This document shows positions 1,820 through 15,661 of a stretch of 64,000 nt of DNA, piece after piece. Every line of letters starts with the position of its first letter. Position 1 is the first letter of the stretch. Below the pieces are notes generated by a model, which was not told the origin of the DNA, made no database searches, and worked only from the letters and a program-made list of their open reading frames with translations. This DNA is from Leptospirillum ferrooxidans C2-3 (GTDB lineage Bacteria; Nitrospirota; Leptospirillia; Leptospirillales; Leptospirillaceae), in the NCBI RefSeq assembly GCF_000284315.1, contig NC_017094.1:465486-529485 (forward strand), read 5' to 3'. Made by a program: the position numbers and the translations under genes.

Positions 1820-2341
1820 TCATTCTTCAATTGGAATTGACTGCACCATGGGAGACGCGTCACATACTTCTGTGTATCCTGATAAGAGATCAAGTGCATG
1901 CCGGATAACCGGAATCAGGAGGCTTAAATGATCAGCAACGGCCTTTGGGCTCCCTGGTAAATTGATGATCAATGTTTTTCCCCGTGTTCCACAAACACCG
2001 CGCGAGAGCATTGCATGCGGAGTTTTTAGTAGACCGGCAGCCCTTGCCGCCTCGGACATTCCGGGGATCTCCCGTTCAAGGACATCCCGGGTTGCCTCTG
2101 GCGTCACATCGCGAGGAGCAAGCCCCGTTCCACCAGTCGTTACGATCAGGTCACTGTACCCATTGGCACTTGATTCCAGCAACTTTTCCCTGATGGCAGT
2201 ACGGTCATCGGGAAGGATGGCCACCTCAATCGAGCTTCCGGCAAATGCCTCTTCCAACATTTTGACCGCCATTGGCCCGGATTGGTCGGAGCGAATACCG
2301 GCATAGCTTCTGTCACTTAGAGTCAGGACGGCAATGCGCAT
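1820..2341 (-). CDS. mogA: Molybdopterin adenylyltransferase
   Basis: MogA adenylylates molybdopterin, the step that prepares it for molybdate insertion by MoeA in the cytoplasm. The 173-residue protein shows the MoCF fold signatures: MRIAVLTLSDR at the start, TTGGTGLAPRDVTPEAT (about residues 68-84) and INLPGSPKAV near residue 126, which form the molybdopterin site. MoaB-type proteins share these motifs and do a similar job, so the symbol could be moaB. It is the last gene of the leftward nitrate/molybdenum-cofactor operon and overlaps moaC by 19 bases. Confidence 0.9.
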   Translation of the reverse strand: MRIAVLTLSDRSYAGIRSDQSGPMAVKMLEEAFAGSSIEVAILPDDRTAIREKLLESSANGYSDLIVTTGGTGLAPRDVTPEATRDVLEREIPGMSEAARAAGLLKTPHAMLSRGVCGTRGKTLIINLPGSPKAVADHLSLLIPVIRHALDLLSGYTEVCDASPMVQSIPIEE

Positions 2342-2868
2342 GATCCTTCACCCTCTTTCTCTAATTCGTTCTTCCGGATAAAGGTACCTCTTCTGCCACC
2401 CGATTTCATTTCAAGCTGAATGCATTCGATGACTGCTGACTGACCTTTCGCCAGAGGTTTACACAGGTCATATACCGTCAGACAAGCGGCGGCAACAGCT
2501 GTGAGTGCTTCCATCTCGACTCCGGTTTTGGCATGCGTACGAACTTGAACCCGGACCATAACAACATCCTGAAGAATCTCCAGATGAACCTCCACTGACT
2601 CAAGCGGCAACGGATGGCAAAGAGGGAGAATCTCGTCGGTTCGCTTGGCTGCCATGATGCCTGCAACCCGGGCGACTTCAAAAACATTTCCTTTCGGGAC
2701 CTTGTTCGCCCGGATACATTCGATCACTTCCCTGGCAAGACGTATCCTTCCAGAAGCAATCGCAATCCTCTCTGTAACTTCTTTTGCTCCCACATCCACC
2801 ATCCGGGCTCGGGAGCCCGGATCTTCCGCTAACTCCACATATCCTCCATTCGTGCACTCTCGAGCCAT
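2323..2868 (-). CDS. moaC: Cyclic pyranopterin monophosphate synthase
   Basis: MoaC converts the MoaA product into cyclic pyranopterin monophosphate, the first stable intermediate of molybdenum-cofactor synthesis. The family core is clear: ARMVDVGAKEVTERIAIASG, then GIMAAKRTDEILPLCHPL with its catalytic Lys and His, and KTGVEMEALTAVAAACLTVYDLCK. The chosen start gives an N-terminal extension of about 20 residues and overlaps moeA by 40 bases. A shorter start at the Met of MVDVG is possible but would remove residues usually present. The C-terminal tail after KSGGRRG is slightly longer than usual. Confidence 0.93.
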   Translation of the reverse strand: MARECTNGGYVELAEDPGSRARMVDVGAKEVTERIAIASGRIRLAREVIECIRANKVPKGNVFEVARVAGIMAAKRTDEILPLCHPLPLESVEVHLEILQDVVMVRVQVRTHAKTGVEMEALTAVAAACLTVYDLCKPLAKGQSAVIECIQLEMKSGGRRGTFIRKNELEKEGEGSCALPS

Positions 2869-4052
2869 TCAAATTCCCAATCTTTCTCTTTAAAACTTGC
2901 TGTATCGCCTTCTTTGGAAGGGGGAACGCACACGATACTGTTCGCCTTGTGCACCGAAAAGAGATCAGAAGAATGACGGCCCTCATAAACAGTTAAGCGA
3001 AATGGCTGGTCTGTCCCCCGATCACCCTGGACCCGGGCAAGCTCAAAGCGGGTTCGCCCACTCTGGTTGGGGGTAATCCTGGCGATACCCCGATCACGAA
3101 ATGACGGAAGGATATTCCCCTGCATCATACGAATGACCGGAGTTACATAGCGATGGAAACACAGGTGAGCAGACAAGGGGTTTCCAGGAAGAGCAAAATA
3201 AAGCCGGCCTCCCTTTCGGGCAAAGAGGAATGGTTTTCCGGGTTTTTGTGAAACCTTATGAAAAAGGATCTCTGCCCCAGTTTTTTGAAGTGCCTCCGGA
3301 ACAAGATCAAAAAGTCCCTCTGAAACACCCCCAGTGATCAGCACTACCTCTGCTTCTGAGGCCTGCTCGAGTGCCTGTGTCAGTGAAAAAAGATCATCGT
3401 CGGCACTCTGTGATCCTATCTTTGTAACTCCGAGCATACAAGCCATTGCCATCAGCATTGGGCCATTGGCATCATGAATTTGTGCTTCTTCAAGAAATCT
3501 CCCTTCACGGACGATCTCTCGTCCTGTTACGATAATCGCAACTTGCGGAGGAGGGATGACAGGTACCGTTTTTTGGCCAAACGAAGCCAGTACAGCAATA
3601 ACCAGCGGAGTCACGATCGTTCCTTTCTTGAGAACGGTCTCGCCATTTCTGCACTCGCTCCCGCGTTTTGACATGTATTGACCCAACTCATGATTCTGAG
3701 TGGAAGTCATCCACGCCCCATCTGATTCAACATCCTCATAAGGAAAAACGAGATCCGTTCCTAATGGGCAGGGAGCCCCAGTCATAATTTCCACGCACTC
3801 ACCCGCATGAAGTGGGATCGGCCAACTTTCTCCTGCCTTCAAAATACCCATTCGTCGGTATCGTCCTGACACCGATCCCAAACACACGGCAAACCCGTCC
3901 ATCATCGATCGGTCAAAAGAAGGAAAATCACAGGGAGCCTGAATATCCTCCGAGAGGCGACACCCAAGCGCATCTGCAAGGGACAAGCATACGGGGGACA
4001 ACTGGGCAACATTTCTCAAAACGGTGCTGAGTGCCTCATCGGGAGTGATCAT
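2829..4052 (-). CDS. moeA: Molybdopterin molybdenumtransferase
   Basis: MoeA inserts molybdate into adenylylated molybdopterin, giving the Mo-MPT cofactor. The 407-residue length is normal. Family motifs are present: CDFPSFDRSMMDGFAV near residue 40, the EIMTGAPCP segment, the MoCF-like IIVTGREIV and TGGVSEGLFD segments, and FALPGNPLSAHLCF near residue 290. It overlaps moaE upstream by 17 bases. No mobA (which would make the bis-MGD form) is seen in the cluster, so the local products suffice only for the plain Mo-MPT form used by sulfite-oxidase-family enzymes. Confidence 0.95.
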   Translation of the reverse strand: MITPDEALSTVLRNVAQLSPVCLSLADALGCRLSEDIQAPCDFPSFDRSMMDGFAVCLGSVSGRYRRMGILKAGESWPIPLHAGECVEIMTGAPCPLGTDLVFPYEDVESDGAWMTSTQNHELGQYMSKRGSECRNGETVLKKGTIVTPLVIAVLASFGQKTVPVIPPPQVAIIVTGREIVREGRFLEEAQIHDANGPMLMAMACMLGVTKIGSQSADDDLFSLTQALEQASEAEVVLITGGVSEGLFDLVPEALQKTGAEILFHKVSQKPGKPFLFARKGGRLYFALPGNPLSAHLCFHRYVTPVIRMMQGNILPSFRDRGIARITPNQSGRTRFELARVQGDRGTDQPFRLTVYEGRHSSDLFSVHKANSIVCVPPSKEGDTASFKEKDWEFEWLESARMEDMWS

Positions 4053-4509
4053 GGCAGGCCATTCCTATTTTCTTCTCTGTAGCGGAAGGAAATGTTTCGT
4101 CCTTGCAGTTCACCCACACAGCCATTCCATCACCGTAGAATTCCTTTTTCCATATCGGAAGACGCTGTTTTATCGCATCGATCACGAAAGAACAAGCCTC
4201 AAAAGCTGGAGCCCGATGAACGGCCGCGACACCAATCCAAACCGCCATCTCCCCAAGCTCAACCTTTCCGGTCCTATGAGCACAAAGAACCTCCAGAATG
4301 TCATACTTTTCCCTCACTTCCGCAAGGATCGCCAACCCTTCTCTCTCTGCAAGTGCCTCATAGGCCTCATACTCAAGGAACAGTACCGATCGCCCCCGGT
4401 GCTGGTTCCGGACGCGGCCTTCAAAAATGACCACTCCTCCAGCTCCCGGATGATAGAGAGAAGAACGTAGAACCCCATCAGAAATAGCCGTTCTCATGAA
4501 CTGAAACAT
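4036..4509 (-). CDS. moaE: Molybdopterin synthase catalytic subunit
   Basis: MoaE is the large subunit of molybdopterin synthase. With thiocarboxylated MoaD it adds two sulfurs to cyclic pyranopterin monophosphate. Typical motifs are VIFEGRVRNQHRG, LEYEAYEALAEREG, the conserved HRTGKVELGEMAVWIGVAAVH (active-site loop) and the C-terminal IWKKEFYGDG with the catalytic lysines. It starts immediately after the moaD stop (TGAATG, no spacer), which fits coupled production of a 1:1 complex. Confidence 0.95.
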   Translation of the reverse strand: MFQFMRTAISDGVLRSSLYHPGAGGVVIFEGRVRNQHRGRSVLFLEYEAYEALAEREGLAILAEVREKYDILEVLCAHRTGKVELGEMAVWIGVAAVHRAPAFEACSFVIDAIKQRLPIWKKEFYGDGMAVWVNCKDETFPSATEKKIGMACHDHSR

Positions 4510-4821
4510 TCATCCCCCTCCAAATGGAGGAAGGAAAACAACAGTGTCTCCGTGTACAAGGGAGTCATCCGGGTTTGTGAAAGTCCCGTTCACTGCGACC
4601 CGAAGAAGAGAAAAGGGGTACTCAAGATCATATTTTTTCCTTATCTCCTCATAGAGAGATTCAGGTGTTCTGGCATTTGTCAAAATCTCTTCCTCCAGCC
4701 TCCCGGCTTTCTCTCTAATGGGACCAAAATAAACCATGAAAAAGGTGCGAGGGGCCACTGACGCGCTTTCTTCGGAACGGTTCAATATGCTTGGAAAACG
4801 ATTACCACCCCTATCTGGCAT
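4510..4821 (-). CDS. moaD: Molybdopterin synthase sulfur carrier subunit
   Basis: MoaD is a ubiquitin-like sulfur carrier that is thiocarboxylated at its C-terminal glycine. The protein ends VVFLPPFGGG, so the required terminal Gly-Gly is present. The fold begins around residue 27 (FFMVYFGPIREKAG), giving an unusual N-terminal extension of about 28 residues. That longer start is favoured by a strong AGGAGG eight bases upstream of 4821. An internal Met at 4737 would give a more standard 75-residue protein. It lies 12 bases after moaA. Confidence 0.9.
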   Translation of the reverse strand: MPDRGGNRFPSILNRSEESASVAPRTFFMVYFGPIREKAGRLEEEILTNARTPESLYEEIRKKYDLEYPFSLLRVAVNGTFTNPDDSLVHGDTVVFLPPFGGG

Positions 4822-4833
4822 GGATCATGCCTC

Positions 4834-5796
4834 CTATCCCCCGATCCGGACCATCTGCTGAGATGTCCATTCCCGAATGGGCGTTTTTTTCTCTGTGTGA
4901 GCTGCCCGGATTAACCGGACAGCCTGTTCTCTTTCACCTGTCCGCCATAATGAGAGAAGATCTAATCCGTCATAATCGTGCAAACACGGAAACAACCATC
5001 CTCTTGAATCGATGCGCAACCGGTCACATTCTCCACAGAACGGTTCCGAGATGGTTGTAATGAATCCAACAACAGTTTTCTTCCCACGAAATTGGAAGAG
5101 ATAACGCGACGCCGTTCCCTTCAAGCCAAGAGGAATCGGATCGCCAAAATAGGGGCGAAGAAATGCCAGTGCTTCGTCAGCTGACAGAAACTCGGATTTG
5201 AAGTATTCAGAAGCCACTCCGATCGGCATTAATTCGATAAAGCGCAATTCACATCTCATGTCAGTCGCAAAATCGACAAGCTCATGCAAGGATTGCCCGT
5301 TAAAATGACGCAAAAGAACCGTATTGAGCTTGAGACTCCTAAACCCCGACTTTTTTGCGGCCAGAATACCTTCCAAAACATCGTCAAACGCATTGACCCT
5401 GGCAATTTCTTCGAATACACCGAATTCTGTCGTATCTAAGCTTATATTCATCGTATCAAGACCGGACTCTTTCAGTGCCTTTACCTGGCGGGAAAGCAGA
5501 AGCCCGTTTGTGGTTAAAGCAATTTCTGCCTTTGGAAGAAGCTTTCGGACCTTTCCAACAAATTCATGGAGGGCGGGACGAACTAGCGGGTCACCTCCCG
5601 TCAAACGCAATTTGTAAATTGGTACAGCGGTGTCCACCATCTCCACAAGGGCCAACAGATGTTCATCTGATAGATGAGACGGGTGCATCGCACTGTCTTC
5701 TGTCTTATCAGGCCTGCAGTAAAGGCATCTCAAGTTACAGCGATCTGTCACAGAAAGACGGAGGTAAAGAGGACGGATGGGAAAAGTGATCATCAT
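4834..5796 (-). CDS. moaA: GTP 3',8-cyclase, radical SAM
   Basis: MoaA starts molybdenum-cofactor synthesis by rearranging GTP through a radical S-adenosylmethionine mechanism. The N-terminal [4Fe-4S] motif is CNLRCLYC (about residues 20-27). The second, C-terminal cluster is seen as CGECDRLRIDSRGWLFPC, and the protein ends VRIGG with the double glycine needed for activity. Length (320) is normal. The start ATG shares one base with the stop of the upstream PII gene (TAATG), indicating coupling between nitrogen signalling and cofactor synthesis genes. Confidence 0.96.
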   Translation of the reverse strand: MMITFPIRPLYLRLSVTDRCNLRCLYCRPDKTEDSAMHPSHLSDEHLLALVEMVDTAVPIYKLRLTGGDPLVRPALHEFVGKVRKLLPKAEIALTTNGLLLSRQVKALKESGLDTMNISLDTTEFGVFEEIARVNAFDDVLEGILAAKKSGFRSLKLNTVLLRHFNGQSLHELVDFATDMRCELRFIELMPIGVASEYFKSEFLSADEALAFLRPYFGDPIPLGLKGTASRYLFQFRGKKTVVGFITTISEPFCGECDRLRIDSRGWLFPCLHDYDGLDLLSLWRTGEREQAVRLIRAAHTEKKTPIREWTSQQMVRIGG

Positions 5797-6167
5797 TAAA
5801 CACCCTTTCCGGAAAGTGGAGTTGATTCATGATCAGTTATTTTCTGTGAAGCGACCGATTTTCCACTCTCACGGATTGTCCGGGATTCAAGAAGGGAAGA
5901 AACAAAGATCTTTCCATCCCCTGGGTTACCAGTACAGGCCGCAATCCGGATCGCATTGACAGCACGATCCATATCGTGATTTTCAACTACAATCATGAAA
6001 AAGACCTTCGCAATTTCTGCGTAATGGATGGTTCCAACATGAATCCCCCTTTGCCGTCCATGTCCCATCACATCCATTCGAGTCAAAGCAAGAATGCCTG
6101 TTTTTTCAAGGGAAAGAACAACATCATTTGCTTTTTCCGGCCTAACAATTGCCTGGATCATTTTCAC
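5796..6167 (-). CDS. NifI1-like PII signalling protein (second copy)
   Basis: This is a small PII-family protein that would bind ATP/ADP and 2-oxoglutarate and report nitrogen status to a partner. It opens KMIQAIVRPEKAND, has a short T-loop region MGHGRQRGIHVGTIHY and carries the PII signature GNPGDGKIFVSSL. The loop resembles NifI1 rather than GlnB/GlnK, with no Tyr51-type uridylylation site visible. I chose the GTG at 6167 because AAGGAGG lies five bases upstream and the product then starts like NifI1 proteins; a longer ATG start at 6194 lacks such a site. The roughly 20-residue C-terminal tail is unusual. Confidence 0.88.
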   Translation of the reverse strand: MKMIQAIVRPEKANDVVLSLEKTGILALTRMDVMGHGRQRGIHVGTIHYAEIAKVFFMIVVENHDMDRAVNAIRIAACTGNPGDGKIFVSSLLESRTIRESGKSVASQKITDHESTPLSGKGV

Positions 6168-6307
6168 AAAGGCCTCCTTCGAGGATAATGGCATCCGGTC
6201 AAATCAGCTGGCATCCACAGTCCTCATCTGAAGCTGCAAGATGAACGGCTAGTTATAGAAAAAGCAGTCCTACCGCGGAGCACATCGTAAAATAGGACAA
6301 CGTACAG

Positions 6308-9300
6308 TCATTTCAAGATTTCCTCATGGATATCATCCTGGCACTCCATCCGGATTTTCTCCCAAATATGCGGACGGCTGGACTCAAGGAGCGTTTCTAC
6401 CTCTTTTCCAAGCATTTTCACCCCCACCCGATCGACAATATTCTGGAAGGTCTCCACTCCAATTCGACGGTTATCGATGCATTCGAGGAGTGTTTCGAAT
6501 ACCGGAAGAACCATCTCTTCAGTCAACCCCTTAAGCACCACTTCGCCAAGTCGAACTTCCTTCCCCATCCGCCCGCCAAGGTAGACGGAATAGGCATAGC
6601 GCCTGTCATCACCAACCACGGTCATGGCACCAGAAAGCCCGATATCCGCTACCTGATGTTTGGAACAGCTGTTTGGACATCCGGAAATGGCAACCGTTAC
6701 TTGATCCATCAGCTCCATGACCTTCGGATTGGGAGATTTAAAATCATGCAGCAGGGAGCGCGCCACCCCCTGGGCATCTGTCACTGCCAAAACACAGAAC
6801 TCCGTTCCGGGACATGCCACAATATTCGGGTTCGTGCCAACAGAAAATGGGGACAGCCCGAGACCCCTGATTTCATGGATAGCGGATGGTCCATGCCTTT
6901 CAGTAATACCCTGGATCTCAATATTCTGCTCCTTCGTCAACTGAAGGATGCCGTCATCTCCATACCGGCGAGTGATCTTTGACAGGGCCTTCAACTGGTA
7001 GGAGGCAAGCTCTCCAAGAGGCACATCCACCGGAATGAGGACCTTTCCCCGTTGCTTTTGTGGAAGACACCCTTCAAGGATACGAGAGGGATACAAGGAA
7101 AACGGAAACGGACGGGGAGACTGTTTTTCTTCCGCAAAACGGAATTCCTTATTCTCGGGCAAAGACTTCTTTCCCTGGAAAACCTGATCAAATATAGTTG
7201 AGAATTTCTCCTTCCCCCACTGCTCAACCAACCACTTGAGACGGGATTTAGCCTTGTTCCTGTTTCCGTGTTTTGTATATATTTCAAAAATAGCCTGACA
7301 GGCAGGGAGTGCTTCGCGAAGAGGAATAAATTCCTTGAGCCTGAACCCAAGAACCGGGTGTGCGCCCAGACTTCCTCCGGCCCATAGCTCAAATCCAAAA
7401 GACTCCGCTTGATTTTGCTCCGCCGGGGCCGGAACGACCCGAAATCCAATATCATTGATCCACACATCCGGATCGCAGAGAGGACAGGCTGAAAAAAGAA
7501 TATTCAGCCGATTCGGAAGACCAGGATTAATCATGTCCGAACGCTGAACAAAGTAATCACTGATGGACCGAGCGATAGGACCAACATCCATGAGCGCATC
7601 CGGACTGACCGAACCATGAGGACAGGCCATTACATTCCGCATGGTGTGACCACAACTCGACCGGGTCGACAGCCCAACTGAATCCAGTCCTTCCCATATA
7701 TACTGCATGTCATGCAACCGGATCCAATGCAGTTCCAGATTCTGACGTGTCGAGATATGGACTCTTCCACGAGCGTATTTCTTCGATAGCCGGGCAAGTT
7801 CCACACCTTGATCGTAGGAGAGGCGACCTCCCGGAATTCGAATCCGGACCATGAAAAATCCCGGATGCTTCTGACTGCAGATGCCATAAGTCTTCAGACG
7901 ATAAAAATCGTCTTCCGAGAGAGCCGCAATGTCTTTTTTGAAGATTTCATCAAAATCGAGTCCGAGACCTTCTTTCTTGATTCTTTCAATCTCGAGCATC
8001 TTGGGGTAGGTCGGCGGGTATTCCGACAGGAGTGTCCTGATCGGAGGATTATCGATAGAAACGGCGGTGGCTGGTGAAGCTTTTACGGATTTCTGTCCAA
8101 TCTCACTTCGGGCAATCAGGTCTGTCACGGCTTGTGAACAACTTCCGCATCCGGTGCTGGCTTTCGTATGTTTTGCAACTTCGTCCCGGGATTTAAGGCC
8201 CTTCGTCCTGACCGCTGCAAGGATCGTTCCTCGCGTCACATTGTGGCAAACGCACACCGTCTCTTTATCGTCTCCTTCAATCAAGGCAGATGAAACGGAT
8301 TTCCCAAAAAAATCTTCCCTGAGAGCCAAGGCCGAACCAGCCGAGTTGATAAGGCCCAACACCCGGGGACTTCCTGCAGGATCTCCCACAAAGATCGCCC
8401 CTTCCAGACGATCTCCCCTAAAAATCAGTTTTCGGTAACTTCCACGATGGGAATCCAGTGCAACCAGTTCTTCTGTTCCGCTACCACCAAGAATTTTGCC
8501 CGCCGAGATCACTGACACCCCTGAAACCTTGAGCGCTGTCGAGCATTCCGTCCCGACGTAAGAAAGGGGCGCTTCCGAGCCATGTGTCAGATTGTGAACA
8601 AGAATCTTTGCCTGTTCCCTGAGCGGTATCACGAGTCCGTAACAATGCCCCCGATGTTCAATCACATCTCCCAGGGCATACACATCTAACGCGCTGGTCA
8701 TAAGATCGTCTTTGACCAGGACACCCTTGTTAACATCAATCCCGGACGAAATCGCAAGGCGTGTGTCTGGAAGAATTCCGGCAGAAATCAGAACAAGGTC
8801 AGCGGGAAGATGCTCACCTGTGCTGAGCTCCACCGCGCTAACGTTACCCCCAATTCCATGAATTTGAGAGAGAACGGTGTTGACACGGATCTGTATCCCC
8901 ATGCGCTCGATTTCTTTTTTGAGCAGGTGACCGCCCATCTGATCAAGTTGCTGGTCCATCACCCATCCCCTCAGATGAAGAACTGTCGCAGCAACACCCA
9001 TGTCTGAAAGCCCCCGGGCGCTCTCAAGGCCAAGAAGTCCACCGCCAACAACAACGGCCTTCCGGCTTTTACGAGCTCTTTCCGAAACCTCCCTGACGTC
9101 TTCTATTGTCCTGAGCACATGGACACCTTTGAGTAAAACTCCCGGAACAGGTGGTATAAAGGGACGAGCGCCAACCGCGATCACGGCAATATCATACGGA
9201 GTTGAATTTCCATTCTCGTCCCAGATAGTTTTTGCCATCGAATCAATACGATCGATCCGCACCCCTGTCTTCAGGGTTATTCCGTTAAGAGAATACCAGT

Positions 9301-9502
9301 CACTCGCTTTGAGCAGAATCTTCTCTGTCGTCTTTCGTCCGGTCAGGAGGTCTACCAGAAAAATCCGGTTGTAAGCCGAGGTAAGAGTCTCATCACCAAA
9401 AACTGTTATTTCCCACTGGGTTTTAACAGAAGAAGGAAGTTCTCCCCACGATTCAAGAAAGGCATCTGTCGCCATTCCATTACCAATAATGACAATCTTC
9501 AT
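6308..9502 (-). CDS. NirB-NirA fusion assimilatory nitrite reductase
   Basis: This 1064-residue protein should reduce nitrite to ammonium with NAD(P)H. Residues 1-410 form a NirB-like FAD/NAD(P) flavoprotein (VIIGNGMA; VVVGGGLLGLE; ALGDVIEHRG). Residues about 415-465 are a BFD-type [2Fe-2S] domain (CVCHN...GCGSC). The rest is a full two-half nitrite/sulfite reductase like NirA, with siroheme/[4Fe-4S] ligands in CPGTEFC and SGCPNSCSKH. Normal NirB carries a different, shorter reductase part and works with NirD, so this is an unusual self-contained layout; no nirD is nearby. The ATG at 9502 is preferred for its AAGGA site. It could in principle reduce sulfite, but the NarK neighbour argues for nitrite. 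Confidence 0.9.
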   Translation of the reverse strand: MKIVIIGNGMATDAFLESWGELPSSVKTQWEITVFGDETLTSAYNRIFLVDLLTGRKTTEKILLKASDWYSLNGITLKTGVRIDRIDSMAKTIWDENGNSTPYDIAVIAVGARPFIPPVPGVLLKGVHVLRTIEDVREVSERARKSRKAVVVGGGLLGLESARGLSDMGVAATVLHLRGWVMDQQLDQMGGHLLKKEIERMGIQIRVNTVLSQIHGIGGNVSAVELSTGEHLPADLVLISAGILPDTRLAISSGIDVNKGVLVKDDLMTSALDVYALGDVIEHRGHCYGLVIPLREQAKILVHNLTHGSEAPLSYVGTECSTALKVSGVSVISAGKILGGSGTEELVALDSHRGSYRKLIFRGDRLEGAIFVGDPAGSPRVLGLINSAGSALALREDFFGKSVSSALIEGDDKETVCVCHNVTRGTILAAVRTKGLKSRDEVAKHTKASTGCGSCSQAVTDLIARSEIGQKSVKASPATAVSIDNPPIRTLLSEYPPTYPKMLEIERIKKEGLGLDFDEIFKKDIAALSEDDFYRLKTYGICSQKHPGFFMVRIRIPGGRLSYDQGVELARLSKKYARGRVHISTRQNLELHWIRLHDMQYIWEGLDSVGLSTRSSCGHTMRNVMACPHGSVSPDALMDVGPIARSISDYFVQRSDMINPGLPNRLNILFSACPLCDPDVWINDIGFRVVPAPAEQNQAESFGFELWAGGSLGAHPVLGFRLKEFIPLREALPACQAIFEIYTKHGNRNKAKSRLKWLVEQWGKEKFSTIFDQVFQGKKSLPENKEFRFAEEKQSPRPFPFSLYPSRILEGCLPQKQRGKVLIPVDVPLGELASYQLKALSKITRRYGDDGILQLTKEQNIEIQGITERHGPSAIHEIRGLGLSPFSVGTNPNIVACPGTEFCVLAVTDAQGVARSLLHDFKSPNPKVMELMDQVTVAISGCPNSCSKHQVADIGLSGAMTVVGDDRRYAYSVYLGGRMGKEVRLGEVVLKGLTEEMVLPVFETLLECIDNRRIGVETFQNIVDRVGVKMLGKEVETLLESSRPHIWEKIRMECQDDIHEEILK

Positions 9503-9529
9503 GGGACTTTTTCCTTTCAAAATATATGC

Positions 9530-10831
9530 TCAACCTCCGAAGACAACTTCCATCGGAACACGAACAGCCGGGGGGAGAAGCGGCAACCCGCGATCCCTCT
9601 CGGGAGAAATCTCTGGAACCGGTAGCCATTCGTGCTCCCAGTTTTTTCGTTTAAGAAAAACCACTGTCCCGCAGAAAAACGCTATAAAAGAAAAGACCAC
9701 AAAACCTGCACCCGTAAGATTCCAGTACTCGCGCAGGACTCCGAAGAGACTGGGCAGGAAAAATCCGCCCAAACCACCAGCTGCTCCGACAATTCCCGAA
9801 ACAACACCAATCTGGGAAGAAAAGCGCTGGGGCACCAGCTGAAACACCGCGCCATTCCCGATTCCAAGGGCCAGAATACCTATTGTCAATAGGAGAATGG
9901 CGACTGGAACGACCGGAAGAAATACTCCGAACAACATAAACGACAGGGCTACAAGCAAATAGATGACAGTGAGAACGCGCAATCCTCCAAAACGGTCTCC
10001 AAGGACCCCGCCAACTGGACGAAAGAAGCTTCCGGATAAAACGGCCAATCCCGTGAGATTTCCTGCTGCAATGGCGCTAAGGCCATAACGGTCGTGATAA
10101 AGGATGTTCAGATAACTTGTGAGACCGACAAACCCTCCAAAAGTTGTCCCGTAAAACAGGCAGAACCACCAAAGATCCCTGACTTTTAAAAGCTCAAGAT
10201 ACGGACGAATTCCCGTAGGAGCCGCAGTCACTGGAGGCTCCTTTGCAAGCCAGGTAAAGAGGACCCAGACCACAAGAACAGGAATGATAGCCAACCCAAA
10301 AACTCTATGCCAACCCAGATGATAGGTAACGGCGAGGGTTGGTGCCAGGAACACCGCAATAAGGGTTCCACTGTTCCCCGCCCCGGCAATACCCATCGCG
10401 ATACCCTGATTCTCACGCGGGTACCACCGGCTTGCCAACGGAAGCGCCACAGCAAAACTGGCCCCGGCAATTCCCAGAAACAACGCGACCACCAAAAGCT
10501 CGTAGAAGCTTTTCCCTCCAAGCCATGCCCATCCGAGGGGAAGGATCGTCACCAAAAGACTTGTCATTCCTACTTTTTTGGGACCGAACCGGTCTGACAG
10601 AAGTCCCAGGATAATCCGGAAGAAAGCCCCTCCCAGCAGTGGAACTGAAACAAGAAACCCTTTCTGAAAAGCTGACAGATGCAGATCTTTGGCGATAAGA
10701 ACACTCAGCGCTCCAATCAGCATCCACACCATAAAACTCACATCAAAATAGAGAAAAGCGGACAAAAGAGTTTTTGGATGACCGCTTTTTAAAGAACTGA
10801 TGATGGGTTGCCCTTTGCGACTATTCTCCAT
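9530..10831 (-). CDS. narK: NarK-type nitrate/nitrite transporter (MFS)
   Basis: This 12-helix major-facilitator protein of the inner membrane imports nitrate and/or nitrite. The nitrate signature motifs are present in both halves: GIAGAGNSGT around residue 128, and a second stretch around residue 325 containing FSSQIGVVSGIVGAAGGLG. The MFS loop motif GLLSDRFGPKK lies after helix 2. I chose the ATG at 10831 (MENSRKGQ) because the longer reading adds 50 basic, non-membrane residues overlapping the upstream gene. The chosen start overlaps the NifI1-like gene by 11 bases and follows a GAGG site. The nitrite reductase start is 27 bases downstream. Confidence 0.92.
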   Translation of the reverse strand: MENSRKGQPIISSLKSGHPKTLLSAFLYFDVSFMVWMLIGALSVLIAKDLHLSAFQKGFLVSVPLLGGAFFRIILGLLSDRFGPKKVGMTSLLVTILPLGWAWLGGKSFYELLVVALFLGIAGASFAVALPLASRWYPRENQGIAMGIAGAGNSGTLIAVFLAPTLAVTYHLGWHRVFGLAIIPVLVVWVLFTWLAKEPPVTAAPTGIRPYLELLKVRDLWWFCLFYGTTFGGFVGLTSYLNILYHDRYGLSAIAAGNLTGLAVLSGSFFRPVGGVLGDRFGGLRVLTVIYLLVALSFMLFGVFLPVVPVAILLLTIGILALGIGNGAVFQLVPQRFSSQIGVVSGIVGAAGGLGGFFLPSLFGVLREYWNLTGAGFVVFSFIAFFCGTVVFLKRKNWEHEWLPVPEISPERDRGLPLLPPAVRVPMEVVFGG

Positions 10832-11144
10832 GTTCCTCGGCTCCTGTTCGGATGGTATGAGATGACAGAACCTCCTGGATAAAGATCTTTCCGTCCCCGG
10901 GGTGCCCCGTATAAGCTGCTTCCTCGATACACTGAACAACCGCTGCCAAATCTGTATCCGAAACCACCACAAGAAATTCAAGTTTCGACAGAGTGTCGTA
11001 ACTCACATCTCCCACCTGAATTCCCTGCTGCTGTCCGCGACCTACAACAGGAAATTTAGTCATCGCATAGAATCCGCCGGATTCCAGACTTTTTAGAACC
11101 TGAGGCTCTTTTTCGGAGCGAACGATGGCCCGTATGAGCTTCAA
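10821..11144 (-). CDS. NifI1-like PII signalling protein
   Basis: The 107-residue PII-family regulator begins MKLIRAIVRSEKE, has a short T-loop with VVGRGQQQGIQVGDVSYD and the signature HPGDGKIFIQEV, and ends HTIRTGAEEHGE. This pattern is that of NifI1, the partner of NifI2 in direct control of nitrogenase in archaea and some bacteria. Here it overlaps by four bases (ATGA) the end of a molybdoprotein that carries a NifI2-like domain, so the pair likely forms a mixed PII complex acting on nitrate assimilation. That role is inference; nucleotide and 2-oxoglutarate binding is family knowledge. Confidence 0.9.
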   Translation of the reverse strand: MKLIRAIVRSEKEPQVLKSLESGGFYAMTKFPVVGRGQQQGIQVGDVSYDTLSKLEFLVVVSDTDLAAVVQCIEEAAYTGHPGDGKIFIQEVLSSHTIRTGAEEHGE

Positions 11145-12295
11145 ATGGCATCCTCCCCTGTTTCTCCGGTGCTGATCCGAATGGCAGTCTCCATTTTAAG
11201 CACAAAAATTTTTCCATCCCCAAATTGGCCTTTTTTACCGCTTTGGTTAGCTTTTTTAATGATTTCAACCGCTTCGTTCACGGATGACTCCTTCACTACA
11301 AACATAAACATCTGCCGTGGCAGAAACCGTATGGCCGCTTCTGAGGTCTCCTCTCCTTTGAACTTGAGCCCTTTCTGACGACCTCTCCCCAATACTCCAT
11401 AGGTGGAGTAAGAAAGAAATCCTCCCTCCTCCAGCGCTTTCTGGGTTGCCTGTCGACGTTCCGGGCGCACAATGACCATGATCTCGCACAGGACGTCTTT
11501 CTCTGATCCCCATTCCACTTCCACCCCTTCCTCCCCGGACGGTTCGCCAGACAACAACCGTGCATCAATTCTCGGGGCAGAAAGTGAATGGGTTGGAAAA
11601 TCCTCTTTTTTGGGCGGAGATAAAATACCACTTGCAGATGCGGGAGCCCCCAAAGGTGGTGGATCACCGGCTTTTCCGGAAGGTACGACAACACCAAGGC
11701 GCTTTACCCAAGCATCGTTTAGCTGCCCACTGGGACTTTGTCCCAGGAGGCGTTTGATTCCGACTGGATCATTCCGAAAAACCCGTATTCCTCCGAGCCA
11801 CTTAACGCTCTTGTATCCCTGAAGAAACGGGACAACCAGCCGGAGAGGACCACCATGCTGCTCGGGAAGAGGTTCACCATTCAGACCGAAAGCGAGTAGT
11901 ACCCTCGGGTCTCTCGCCTCATCTCTGGACAAGGTTTCGAAATAAACGCCATCTCTTGAGTAAAAGGCAAAATATCCATCAATGGGTGCATCCACTCGAA
12001 GATGATCGATCAAATCCACAAGACGGATGCCTTCCCACTGAACATTTTCATACCAGTTAAAGAGCTGGCAAATAATGGGAATATCCTGCTTTATCCGGGG
12101 AAGAGATGAAAGAGAAGACCAAGGGATCAGGCGAGGGTGCTCCTCTAATCCGCACACTTCCAGCCGGACGTCATCAAGGATGATTCCAGGCGGAATGGGA
12201 TAGAGACAAAGAACAGGTAAAGGCTCTGATTCAAAATCAATTCTGAAAAATTTGTCAGCAAATTTTGGAGGAATGATCCCTTCACGTTTCTTCAA
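11141..12295 (-). CDS. Sulfite-oxidase-family molybdoprotein fused to a NifI2-like PII domain
   Basis: Residues 25-185 form a cytoplasmic YuiH-type molybdopterin oxidoreductase domain. Cys76 in IIC76QLFNW is the likely Mo ligand, with the family motifs QWEGIRLVDLI, LNGEPLPEQHGGPLRLVVP and GYKSVKWLGGI. A proline-rich linker (about 190-262) leads to a complete PII domain at 268-384 (CEIMVIVRPER; LGRGRQKGL; FGDGKIFVLKM; TAIRISTGETGEDAI), which is NifI2-like. No signal peptide is present. It is the first gene of the nitrate operon, started by TTG with GGAGG seven bases upstream. Because no other nitrate reductase lies here and plant nitrate reductases belong to the same cofactor fold, it may reduce nitrate under direct 2-oxoglutarate/ATP control. 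I know of no described protein with this fusion. Confidence 0.92.
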   Translation of the reverse strand: MKKREGIIPPKFADKFFRIDFESEPLPVLCLYPIPPGIILDDVRLEVCGLEEHPRLIPWSSLSSLPRIKQDIPIICQLFNWYENVQWEGIRLVDLIDHLRVDAPIDGYFAFYSRDGVYFETLSRDEARDPRVLLAFGLNGEPLPEQHGGPLRLVVPFLQGYKSVKWLGGIRVFRNDPVGIKRLLGQSPSGQLNDAWVKRLGVVVPSGKAGDPPPLGAPASASGILSPPKKEDFPTHSLSAPRIDARLLSGEPSGEEGVEVEWGSEKDVLCEIMVIVRPERRQATQKALEEGGFLSYSTYGVLGRGRQKGLKFKGEETSEAAIRFLPRQMFMFVVKESSVNEAVEIIKKANQSGKKGQFGDGKIFVLKMETAIRISTGETGEDAI

Positions 12296-12370: not shown

Positions 12371-12386
12371 AGCAAGAAATATGCCA
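12371..12386 (-). promoter_or_regulatory. Sigma-54 (-24/-12) promoter of the nitrate operon
   Basis: On the minus strand the sequence reads TGGCATATTTCTTGCT, which matches the sigma-54 consensus TGGCAC-N5-TTGCW with exact spacing (GG and GC ten bases apart). Transcription would begin near 12360, about 65 bases before the first gene. Sigma-54 control fits nitrogen-regulated genes and implies an NtrC-type activator encoded elsewhere. Confidence 0.75.
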
Positions 12387-12484: not shown

Positions 12485-12801
12485 CCATCAACGTGAGAAA
12501 TAAGATTCCATCATCCAGAAACAAATCCATCTCATAACATCCCTTTAAAAAAGGAAAAGGGCCATTTTTGCAAAAGATCTCCCTCTCCATTCAAACATGG
12601 GGGGTGAAGGCTGTATGCCCCCCACCGAAAGATCATGTGTTTGTGGCGGGAGCGATGAATCAACTCCAAAACAGACTCTTCATATTTACAGCCATTTTTT
12701 ACACGGCACACAATTTGCTAAGAGCTGCGAAGGGCACTGGCTCTTACGACATACCGAGCTGTAAAGCGGCAGTCATGATTGATCTTGACAATGGAGAGAA
12801 C

Positions 12802-14418
12802 ATGACAATACTGGGGATCCGCTCTTCGTTGCTCCTTATCATATTTGTCCTATGTTTCAGAGAAATTTCGTGGACGGCAAATGCATGGAGCTCTTCGCTA
12901 ACTACACCTGATCAATCCTCCTCAGCATCAACAGGCCCGAAGCAGGGATCTTCAAGCTCCAACAATCAAGACGATACTCCGTTCAAATCAGAAGTACACC
13001 GGTCTTTTCTGAATCTTATCCCTGATGCACCTCCCCCGGGGTATGCCCAAATGGTGAGTAAATGGCTCATCATGGTCTATGGGTTCATCGAACTCGATAC
13101 CATCTATGACTCTACGAATTCATTCAACAATTGGCCGTTCAACTCAGGGGCCGCGAATTCCCAGACAGTGGAAACCAACGCGATTCCTCCGACAACCAAT
13201 CCCAGTCTCGGTCAGACAGTGGATCACCCCTCATTCGGGTTCGATGCCAATAACTCCCGACTTGGTTTTGCCATTTCTTCTCCAAACTATAATGGGTATA
13301 AGGTTCGAAGCCTTCTCGAGATGGACTTTCTCAATACTCCCGGTGAATGCCAATATGGAGGATCCTTCCCGTGTGGAACGAATTCCGGACCCGGCATGTT
13401 CCAATTTCCCGTTCCACGGATCCGACTTGCTTTTATGGATATCAGCAGCCAGAATTGGGGGAATCTGCTTATTGGGCAATATTGGTCCCTATTCGGCTGG
13501 AGACCTTATTATATGTACAACTCTTTGCAGATCGTTTCGGGTCCCGGCTCCCCCACGGCATGGTTCCCACAAATCCGCTATTATCGGATCTTCCACTTTT
13601 CTCACGGAAACAAGGCAGAAATAGCAGTGTCCGCCATGATGCCTCCCTCCGAGAGTTTCGCCTTCCCGGCTTTTGTGGAAGGGATCAAATGGGTCAATAC
13701 AAACTGGATGGGAGAAGATACGCTGGGTAACAGCGCAAAGGGACCTTCCCCACTTTCGATCGGGTTCTCAGATGTCCAAACAAACTATAATGGTTCTTTT
13801 ATTCCATCAGCCGGAGCAGGTACACAAACGTTCAATAAATCCACATCAGCCTATGCTTTGGATTTACTTCTCCCCATTATTCCTATCCAGAACGACAATC
13901 CTGGAAATACCCTGACCCTGGCAGCAGAATTCACTTATGGGCAAGGCGATGCCTGGCTCTTTCCCAATCTTACCTTCGGCTTGGGATCTTATGCCGGAAC
14001 AGCGGGAGCTTCCGGGATTCCCAGTGGGGGACTGATCCCCGCCGGCAATGGCATCCTCCAGGGAGATGAGTTCGTTCCGCTGGATCTTGAAACCTTTTAC
14101 CTGAATCTTCAGTATTACTTTCCTGATCAGGCCAAAACATGGATTTCCGTTGGTTTTGCCGGCGACATCGGAACGAACATACAGTCTCTCGCAAATTCCA
14201 TCGGCCCGAAAACCCTCGGAGGAGGAGTTTCAAGCAATGGACTTTACAAATACCTCGCTCCTTGGTCACGAAACACTTACACCTTTGTAAACCTCTCCCA
14301 TGATCTCACTCCGGCGGTCCGCGTGTCTCTTGAAGTTGGAAGTTACAATACACTCTACACCACCGGGATAACGGCAGCAGATCAGCGGGCAATGATGTCC
14401 TGGTTCTACTTTTTCTAA
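12802..14418 (+). CDS. DcaP-like outer-membrane porin
   Basis: The 538-residue protein starts with a signal sequence (MTILGIRSSLLLIIFVLCF, then TANAWS), passes through a Ser/Thr/Gln-rich linker, and continues as a beta-barrel rich in alternating aromatic strands (FGFDANNSRLGFAISSPNYNGYKV; LAFMDISSQNWGNLLIGQYW). It ends in Phe (SWFYFF), as outer-membrane barrels do. The ATG at 12802 was chosen because GGAGAG precedes it and a signal peptide follows; the open frame runs 78 codons further upstream without such features. It is divergent from the nitrate operon, so uptake of nitrate or another anion across the outer membrane is a reasonable guess, not shown. Confidence 0.8.
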   Translation: MTILGIRSSLLLIIFVLCFREISWTANAWSSSLTTPDQSSSASTGPKQGSSSSNNQDDTPFKSEVHRSFLNLIPDAPPPGYAQMVSKWLIMVYGFIELDTIYDSTNSFNNWPFNSGAANSQTVETNAIPPTTNPSLGQTVDHPSFGFDANNSRLGFAISSPNYNGYKVRSLLEMDFLNTPGECQYGGSFPCGTNSGPGMFQFPVPRIRLAFMDISSQNWGNLLIGQYWSLFGWRPYYMYNSLQIVSGPGSPTAWFPQIRYYRIFHFSHGNKAEIAVSAMMPPSESFAFPAFVEGIKWVNTNWMGEDTLGNSAKGPSPLSIGFSDVQTNYNGSFIPSAGAGTQTFNKSTSAYALDLLLPIIPIQNDNPGNTLTLAAEFTYGQGDAWLFPNLTFGLGSYAGTAGASGIPSGGLIPAGNGILQGDEFVPLDLETFYLNLQYYFPDQAKTWISVGFAGDIGTNIQSLANSIGPKTLGGGVSSNGLYKYLAPWSRNTYTFVNLSHDLTPAVRVSLEVGSYNTLYTTGITAADQRAMMSWFYFF

Positions 14419-14529: not shown

Positions 14530-14640
14530 TTATCAACTACCCGCCACTAAGCCGAAGCTGTCGTGGGGGTTTGCAGTTCAAGCGTTCGATTCAGACTGCG
14601 ATAGGCCGATTGATTGCGGCCTTGAAGCGAATGTTCCGTG
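14530..14640 (-). ncRNA. Probable TnpB guide RNA (omega/reRNA) region
   Basis: TnpB genes of IS200/IS605 elements overlap at their 3' end with a structured RNA that reaches the right end of the element and carries the guide. Here the sequence just past the tnpB stop contains a strong hairpin (14541-14569: CCCCCAC...GTGGCGGG around a UUCG-capped AGC/GCU stem), followed on the minus strand by GTAGTTGATAAATC. The end of the scaffold is probably near 14533. Boundaries are inferred. Confidence 0.45.
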
Positions 14641-15661
14641 CGGCATTGATGTCCGCATGTTCGGTGTGTTTACAGATCAAACAGGAGAAATGTTCTTGAG
14701 ACTTTCGGTTGTCTTTTTCGCAATGTCCACAAACAGAGCATGTGCGGGAGGTGTTTCGTGGATCGACGACCACCACGGGAACGCCTTCCAGAACAGCCTT
14801 GTAGGTGATAAAGCGTCTCAACTGGTCAAACGCCCATTTTCCGAATCGTTCCTTTTGGCTCTTTCCAACCATTGTCCGGCCGTTGAATCCCTTGAGATCC
14901 TCAAGGGCGATACCTCGTCCGGTGCCTTTTGCCTTGGAAACGATCTTTTTCGAAAGACAGTGATTCGTGTCTTTCTTGAATCGCGCTTCTTTGCCAGACA
15001 CTTTTTTCAGGTGGCGTTTGGCATTCTTCGTTCCTTTCTCCTGAAGCGCTTTTTTCAGGGTGTGGATCTTTTCCCGGACATGATCCACTCCTTCTCCGGA
15101 GAACGATTCTCCATCGGAGTCGGTGGAGAGATTCACAATGCCCATATCGACTCCGAGAAACTCTTCGGGGTCATAGGGTGTTCCGTCCGGAACATCGATC
15201 ACGAGATTCAGGAAGAATTTCCCGCCGGAGGGGGTGAGATCCGCCTGTCCGAGCATCTTGTTCCGGTCGAGCGGAGCGTAGTGGCCGAAGATCAACGGAA
15301 CGGTGATCCGTCCGTGGATGGTCGCAAGAGAAGCATGGGACAGGGACTTGAAAGACAGAAGACGCTTGTCATACTCCATGGCCGATTGTTTCTTGAAAAA
15401 GTGGAGCGTTTTCTTCTCCGTCCTGTAGCTGCCGGAAACCTTGGCAATGGCCCGGACGATCATCTGTGAGGTGAGGGCGGGAAACTGTTCCCTCGCTTCA
15501 AAATAGACCAGATGGTGGAGTTTCATCTGGTACGGTGTTCCTGCCTCAAAGGACTTTTTGGAAATCCAGTTGCAGGCGTCGTTGAACGTCTCGATCGTCT
15601 CCAGAAGAGACTTGGCCTCTTCTTTGGTTGGGGTCAGTTTGACCTTCAATGCTTTTTTCAT
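14591..15661 (-). CDS. tnpB: TnpB, RNA-guided endonuclease of an IS200/IS605-type element
   Basis: The 356-residue protein has the OrfB_IS605 layout. RuvC-like catalytic residues are seen as Asp in LGVDMGIVNL, Glu in GIALEDLKGF and Asp in HADINAARNI. The zinc finger is CSVCGHC...CLIC. All key residues are intact, so it is probably an active RNA-guided nuclease. No tnpA lies alongside, making this a tnpB-only (IS1341-type) unit that depends on a transposase elsewhere. The predicted guide RNA lies at the 3' end of the gene. Confidence 0.93.
   Translation of the reverse strand: MKKALKVKLTPTKEEAKSLLETIETFNDACNWISKKSFEAGTPYQMKLHHLVYFEAREQFPALTSQMIVRAIAKVSGSYRTEKKTLHFFKKQSAMEYDKRLLSFKSLSHASLATIHGRITVPLIFGHYAPLDRNKMLGQADLTPSGGKFFLNLVIDVPDGTPYDPEEFLGVDMGIVNLSTDSDGESFSGEGVDHVREKIHTLKKALQEKGTKNAKRHLKKVSGKEARFKKDTNHCLSKKIVSKAKGTGRGIALEDLKGFNGRTMVGKSQKERFGKWAFDQLRRFITYKAVLEGVPVVVVDPRNTSRTCSVCGHCEKDNRKSQEHFSCLICKHTEHADINAARNIRFKAAINRPIAV

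Follow-up and report, generated by a model that had tools for sequence, protein, structure and literature searches.

The PII-family proteins NifI1 and NifI2 of methanogens and anaerobic bacteria form a complex that obstructs NifDK where NifH would dock; 2-oxoglutarate and MgATP release it, and both partners are needed (PMC9765008). The class is defined through its linkage to nitrogenase (PMC8115048, citing Leigh & Dodsworth 2007), and for methanogens that fix nitrogen both genes are described as always lying within the nitrogenase operon (PMC8395244). In cyanobacteria, a GlnB-type PII controls nitrate uptake (NrtBCD-PII complex, PDB 8wm7; also PMC6603209). Here we describe a nitrate-assimilation operon in a 64,000 nt stretch of the Leptospirillum ferrooxidans C2-3 genome (contig NC_017094.1, positions 465,486–529,485; hereafter the window), in which a free NifI1-type PII protein is encoded beside a NifI2-type PII domain fused to a candidate nitrate reductase of the sulfite oxidase (SUOX) family.

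As in the NifI1/NifI2 switch (PMC9765008; PDB 9p1x), two kinds of PII are encoded side by side and fall in the same clades, the T-loop of the NifI1 kind is shortened, Tyr51 is missing and residues of the 2-oxoglutarate/ATP site are kept. The nitrate pair differs in being encoded with nitrate assimilation, often in genomes lacking NifH, in having one partner fused to an enzyme and a second NifI1-type paralogue, and in the T-loop of its NifI2-type member, in nearly all cases far shorter than in the nif clusters of Nitrospirota. With NrtBCD-PII it shares the use of PII control in nitrate assimilation, but the cyanobacterial GlnB-type protein acts on an ABC transporter, whereas the NifI-type pair is tied to a candidate reductase. 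Neither NifI outside nif nor a PII protein fused to a molybdoenzyme was found in open PMC papers, closed literature and preprints lying outside the search; NifI is absent from the text of the M. infernus nitrate paper.

Class of the nitrate-linked PII proteins

Trees of 142 and 108 PII sequences (109–112 alignment columns) were built, in which the NifI references from outside Nitrospirota were 9p1x and two nifH-I1-I2-D loci of Chloroflexota (L145, L146). Three blocks were recovered: I1 (support 100/98–99), I2 (100/95–96) and GlnB/GlnK (99–100/86–93). In both trees the I1 block holds nif NifI1, chain 9p1x_H and the free nitrate PIIs, and the I2 block holds nif NifI2, chain 9p1x_G and the nitrate I2 sequences, including the fused domain; the nitrate class is sister to the nif class. 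The first-pass annotation had likened the free protein to NifI1 and the fused domain to NifI2, and had named a placement of both inside GlnB/GlnK as contrary evidence; the likeness is borne out, and no such placement was obtained. Approximately unbiased (AU) tests were supportive, at modest levels, with p 0.045 and 0.021 when nitrate I2 was held with GlnB/K, and p 0.013 and 0.053 when nitrate I1 was. Treating all nitrate PIIs as a single group was rejected (p 3e-5), so their two kinds correspond to the two kinds of NifI. A single origin of nitrate I1 was not rejected (p 0.46).

Because the PII alignment is short, T-loop length (GlnB positions 37–58) is useful as an independent mark. The span is 22 residues in GlnB/K; it is 18 in each NifI1 linked to nif and likewise in 44 of 44 nitrate I1 and I1c proteins, from which the uridylylation site Tyr51 is absent, as in NifI. 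For the NifI2 kind it is 23–30 residues in nearly all nitrate I2 proteins and 30 in 9p1x_G. The T-loop of NifI2 linked to nif in Nitrospirota is very long (47–49 residues; L124–L141, L054). By phmmer, the best PDB match of both free nitrate PIIs of the operon is 9p1x_H (9.7e-23 and 1.2e-24) and that of the fused domain is 9p1x_G (2e-19), the same two chains that are matched by the genome's own nif NifI1 and NifI2. The PII chains of 9p1x are present in 12 and 6 copies, and the entry is a nitrogenase-PII complex, since it also contains nitrogenase alpha chains. The free nitrate PII gene adjoins a NifI2-type partner, which is the fused domain here and a free gene elsewhere. As these genes lie outside a nitrogenase operon, the setting by which NifI1 and NifI2 are recognised, the pair is named NifI-type rather than NifI1/NifI2.

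The residues Arg9, Gln39, Lys58 and GDGK bind 2-oxoglutarate and ATP in PII proteins (PMC8395244), and all are retained by the free nitrate PII of the operon. Nearly all free nitrate PIIs have Gln39, Lys58 and GDGK/R, and all those aligned have Arg9. The fused domain retains Arg9, Gln39 and GDGK. The free PII (dN/dS ~0.07 against the same-genus genome G061), the fused PII domain (~0.05) and the enzyme domain (~0.02) are under strong purifying selection; the linker of the fusion is only 59% identical to that of G061. Distances of the free PII and the fused domain covary beyond those of the enzyme (partial r 0.42), which is weak evidence.

The fused enzyme and its operon

The fusion contains an Oxidored_molyb domain (PF00174, 9.6e-28, residues 39–176) and a P-II domain (2.1e-17, residues 271–378). 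It shares the PF00174 fold and an invariant catalytic cysteine with the sulfite oxidase family (MsrP/YedY, SorA and eukaryotic assimilatory nitrate reductase, 2bii), Cys76 being invariant across 33 relatives of the fused enzyme. It differs from the family in being without haem, FAD and Mo-co_dimer domains (the last, PF03404, is C-terminal in sulfite oxidase and eukaryotic nitrate reductase and had no match here in a Pfam scan), and the C-terminal place is taken by PII. MsrP/YedY likewise are without PF03404, so its absence is compatible with a place of the fused enzyme in the wider sulfite oxidase family. No export signal was visible by eye (no dedicated test was made), and the sequence suggests a cytoplasmic enzyme. 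In an AlphaFold model the SUOX fold is confident, the linker (residues 210–264) is disordered and the PII fold is mostly confident. In fold comparisons the enzyme scored Z 14.8 with a Pichia nitrate reductase fragment and Z 15 with sulfite oxidases, YedY being about equal; nitrate reductase, sulfite oxidase and MsrP functions are indistinguishable by the sequence or fold of the enzyme.

The source genome is a single contig of 2,559,538 bases (completeness 99.97%), in which the fusion is the sole PF00174 protein. Its sole PF00384 protein is NuoG, there is no match to PF02738, and MobA is unmatched at E 0.001; among the families searched, no molybdoenzyme besides the SUOX fusion was found. A nitrate reductase with bis-molybdopterin guanine dinucleotide (bis-MGD) is thus unlikely, and the moa/moe genes of the operon fit an enzyme of the Mo-molybdopterin type. 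Genes for a nitrate transporter and an assimilatory nitrite reductase share the operon with the fused enzyme, the only nitrate reductase candidate of the genome. Gene context and exclusion together indicate that it is probably a nitrate reductase. Compared with NasA/NarB (bis-MGD) nitrate reductases it would have the same probable reaction and operon partners, but it comes from an unrelated enzyme family, and the genome has no NasA/NarB-type enzyme.

The operon is read on the minus strand in the order fusion, free PII, NarK, NirB-NirA, third PII and then six molybdenum-cofactor genes, ending at 1820 (Table 1). The setting in nitrate assimilation claimed by the first-pass annotation is confirmed by the NarK-family transporter and the NirB-NirA fusion. 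The four-base gene overlap that it noted is also confirmed: the bases TTGA contain both the stop codon (TGA) of the fusion gene and the start codon (TTG) of the free PII gene. The same overlap occurs in three relatives (L038, L039 and L042). The mechanically called NarK open reading frame (ORF) extends to 10981, and the NarK gene overlaps the free PII gene by 11 bases. NirB-NirA is one protein of 1070 aa, with a NirB NAD(P)H/FAD and BFD half and a NirA-type siroheme half, and is kept across the Nitrospirota clusters.

Table 1. Positions, in the window, of the nitrate operon's genes, domains and putative promoter sites
Feature	Position	Strand	Remarks
Second, divergent putative sigma-54-type site	12704–12719	+	faces porin-like ORF
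Putative sigma-54-type -24/-12 site	12371–12386	-	TGGCATATTTCTTGCT; 75 bp upstream of fusion gene
SUOX-PII fusion gene	11141–12295	-	384 aa; Pfam PF00174 and P-II
SUOX-family (PF00174) domain	12295–11681	-	residues ~1–205; candidate assimilatory nitrate reductase
Variable linker	11680–11498	-	residues ~206–266
NifI2-type PII domain	11497–11141	-	residues ~267–384
TTGA overlap, fusion gene/free PII gene	11141–11144	-	
Free NifI1-type PII	10821–11144	-	107 aa, TTG start; Pfam P-II 2.4e-22
NarK-type nitrate/nitrite transporter	9530–10831	-	433 aa from ATG at 10831; TIGR00886, slightly below its cut-off
NirB-NirA fusion nitrite reductase	6308–9520	-	NirB FAD/NAD(P)H and BFD 2Fe-2S; NirA siroheme
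Second free NifI1-type PII (I1c clade)	5796–6194	-	third PII of operon
MoaA	4834–5796	-	
MoaD	4510–4821	-	
MoaE	4036–4509	-	
MoeA	2829–4052	-	
MoaC	2323–2868	-	
MogA/MoaB-like molybdopterin adenylyltransferase	1820–2341	-	

Upstream of the fusion gene is a putative sigma-54-type site, and 10 of 32 homologous clusters, all from Nitrospirota, carry, within 350 bp, such a site with no more than one mismatch (expected, 0.011 per 350 bp). The second site points toward a conserved porin-like gene, an arrangement found in all three Leptospirillum-family loci. This outer-membrane-porin-like ORF (~12802–14418) has no Pfam match, is 81–92% identical in two relatives and is possibly a nitrate porin. By eye, the region is flanked by an IS3-type transposase ORF and a TnpB/OrfB-like ORF (27–1100 and 14591–15661).

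Seven PII-family genes are present in the genome, three of them in the nitrate operon. The others are a GlnK beside Amt (L001), a PII-like protein (L003) with an upstream neighbour that resembles DabA by eye, and, together with nifV in the nif region, a NifI1/NifI2 pair (L007/L054), with nifH ~16 kb upstream. This separate, true nif pair is an internal reference for the nitrate PIIs.

Occurrence in other genomes

The fusion was first found within the phylum and then by alignment in named genomes, and 42 enzyme loci were examined; relatives of the source genome are labelled Leptospirillum or Nitrospirae. The taxonomy of metagenome-assembled genomes (MAGs) is to be taken with care, above all for archaeal bins. 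Both PII partners are present at 30 of the 42 loci, from Nitrospirota, Lindowbacteria, Acidobacteriota, SAR202 Chloroflexota and one archaeal MAG. Enzyme and I2 are joined in one ORF at 15 loci, with an apparent frameshift at two more (Nitrospirota, Lindowbacteria and Acidobacteriota), so that the tethering of the enzyme to one partner, as first proposed, is literal in the sequence and conserved in relatives. Other arrangements are I2 and I1 adjacent and following NirB-NirA (five Nitrospirota loci), an unfused I2-SUOX-NarK-NirA-I1 order (eight SAR202/Chloroflexota loci, of which L088 is without a recognised NarK), and I1-I2-I2-SUOX-NarK in one archaeal-labelled MAG. In the last (L083, 20–4878) the two I2-type genes are in tandem, and after NarK comes an electron-transfer flavoprotein fusion that might act as electron donor.

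Seventeen genomes with the nitrate-linked pair (G126, G138, G156, G182, G184, G253, G263, G281, G291 and G295–G302) have no NifH match better than 5e-14, genuine NifH scoring E < 1e-69. This upholds the suggestion of a NifI pair outside nitrogenase control. In the SAR202 genome G300, no PII genes were found beyond the two of the nitrate cluster, although the MAG may be incomplete.

Three loci with the pair alone (L048, L049 and L050) nest within the fused I2 clade, which points to a single fusion event and a later loss of the enzyme domain. Beside the pair-only cluster in L049 (9836–14000) and L174 are genes for a sigma-54 activator, a copper nitrite reductase and an Fdh/Nas-like enzyme of the dimethyl sulfoxide (DMSO) reductase family with a DmsB/DmsC-like partner. 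In the pair-only genome G138, an Fdh/Nas-like DMSO-family enzyme ~3 kb downstream might be a NasC-type replacement for SUOX, but one of the same kind is present in the SUOX-bearing G291, and the best score is to Fdh-alpha. A same-clade SUOX enzyme without PII partners is found in five MAGs labelled Thaumarchaeota, Chloroflexi or Dehalococcoidia (L066, L074, L076, L078 and L079), with NirA and/or NarK beside it in four of the five and neither within the L079 stretch.

A proposed switch and its alternatives

The operon would form a self-contained module in which NarK imports nitrate, the SUOX-family enzyme makes nitrite and NirB-NirA makes ammonium, with Mo-molybdopterin supplied by the operon's own moa/moe genes. 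The NifI2-type domain, joined covalently to the candidate nitrate reductase through the disordered linker, would most likely assemble with the free PII as a mixed trimer on the enzyme. When 2-oxoglutarate is low (nitrogen surplus), the T-loops may obstruct the enzyme, or its access to the electron donor or nitrite reductase; when 2-oxoglutarate and MgATP are high (nitrogen shortage), they would shift and free the activity, as NifI1,2 does for nitrogenase. The sigma-54 promoter may add nitrogen control at transcription. The simplest reading is that a trimer of mixed PII parts would bind the SUOX enzyme and be freed by 2-oxoglutarate, and we infer the nitrate reductase activity, the mixed complex and the direction and sign of control from gene content and homology. 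A trimer of I1, I1c and I2, matching the 2:1 chain ratio of 9p1x, is speculation, since SAR202 loci hold a single I1. Overall, we favour, with some reserve, a 2-oxoglutarate-operated NifI-type switch that controls nitrate reduction and has one partner tethered to the enzyme.

Several observations weigh against this proposal. In sequence, eukaryotic nitrate reductase is more distant from the enzyme than sulfite oxidases and MsrP are. The PII alignment is short, and its AU p-values against a GlnB/K grouping are modest. In this genus the fused domain carries Lys58Arg and Arg103Ser, so its own ligand site may be altered. The enzyme occurs without the NifI pair at nine loci (L066, L067, L071, L073, L074, L076, L078, L079 and the distant L090), and the pair occurs without the enzyme beside NirB-NirA in L049, and also in L048 and L050, which are short contigs; the enzyme may for these reasons not be the pair's sole target.

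The strongest competitor, which we consider unlikely but worth keeping in view, is a 2-oxoglutarate switch aimed at NirB-NirA or the transporter, the SUOX fusion merely anchoring the pair in an assimilation complex. It would account for L049, where I2, I1, a major facilitator superfamily transporter, NirB-NirA and I1c occur without SUOX and I2 nests in the fused clade, as if the enzyme had been lost and the pair kept, and a PII complex with a cyanobacterial nitrate transporter has been solved (8wm7). At most loci, however, I2 is fused to or adjoins SUOX, including those of SAR202 with a different, unfused NirA. The SUOX domain might instead be another cytoplasmic molybdoenzyme, such as a sulfoxide or N-oxide reductase, travelling with nitrate genes. 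The SUOX family is functionally diverse and the nearest sequences are sulfite oxidases and MsrP, but NarK and NirA or NirBA are constant neighbours across several phyla and the source genome has no other nitrate reductase candidate, and we think this rather improbable.

Less probable still is that the fused PII is a structural trimerisation module that stands in for the Mo-co_dimer domain absent from the enzyme and has ceased to sense metabolites. The lack of PF03404 and the substitutions at positions 58 and 103 would suit such a role; against it, the fused domain keeps Gln39, GDGK and Arg9, no ligand-site residue is lost from the free partner, whose gene is conserved alongside, and unfused relatives manage without a tether. 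That the nitrate PIIs are ordinary GlnB/GlnK duplicates placed by chance in a nitrate operon has a precedent of sorts in the GlnB-type control of cyanobacterial nitrate uptake. Such an identity was rejected on the trees and T-loop length: the GlnB/GlnK clade is separate (99–100 bootstrap), T-loop length, Tyr51 loss and the nearest PDB relatives indicate NifI, and the genome already has its own GlnK with Amt. Chance placement of duplicates is therefore largely refuted and very improbable.

A wider view seems to us evenly poised. In it, the NifI1/NifI2 pair would be no invention peculiar to nitrogenase but an enzyme switch of general use, operated by 2-oxoglutarate, that has split into at least two old branches, one for nif and one for nitrate. 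The nitrate branch would govern a cytoplasmic assimilatory nitrate reductase of SUOX type, not recognised before, which occurs in Nitrospirota, SAR202, Acidobacteriota and Lindowbacteria and possibly in archaea, and the tether would be covalent in one lineage. That organisms without nitrogenase have the pair in their nitrate operons contradicts a definition of NifI through nitrogenase linkage, and suggests that the NifI-type switch is a general nitrogen control module. The nitrate pair offers a natural test of target recognition by mixed PII complexes that act on different enzymes, and the fusion, by setting which partner contacts the enzyme, is a ready construct for structural work. A SUOX-type nitrate reductase is also indicated for lineages that are widespread and uncultured, SAR202 among them; a search there for NasA/NarB would overlook nitrate assimilation.

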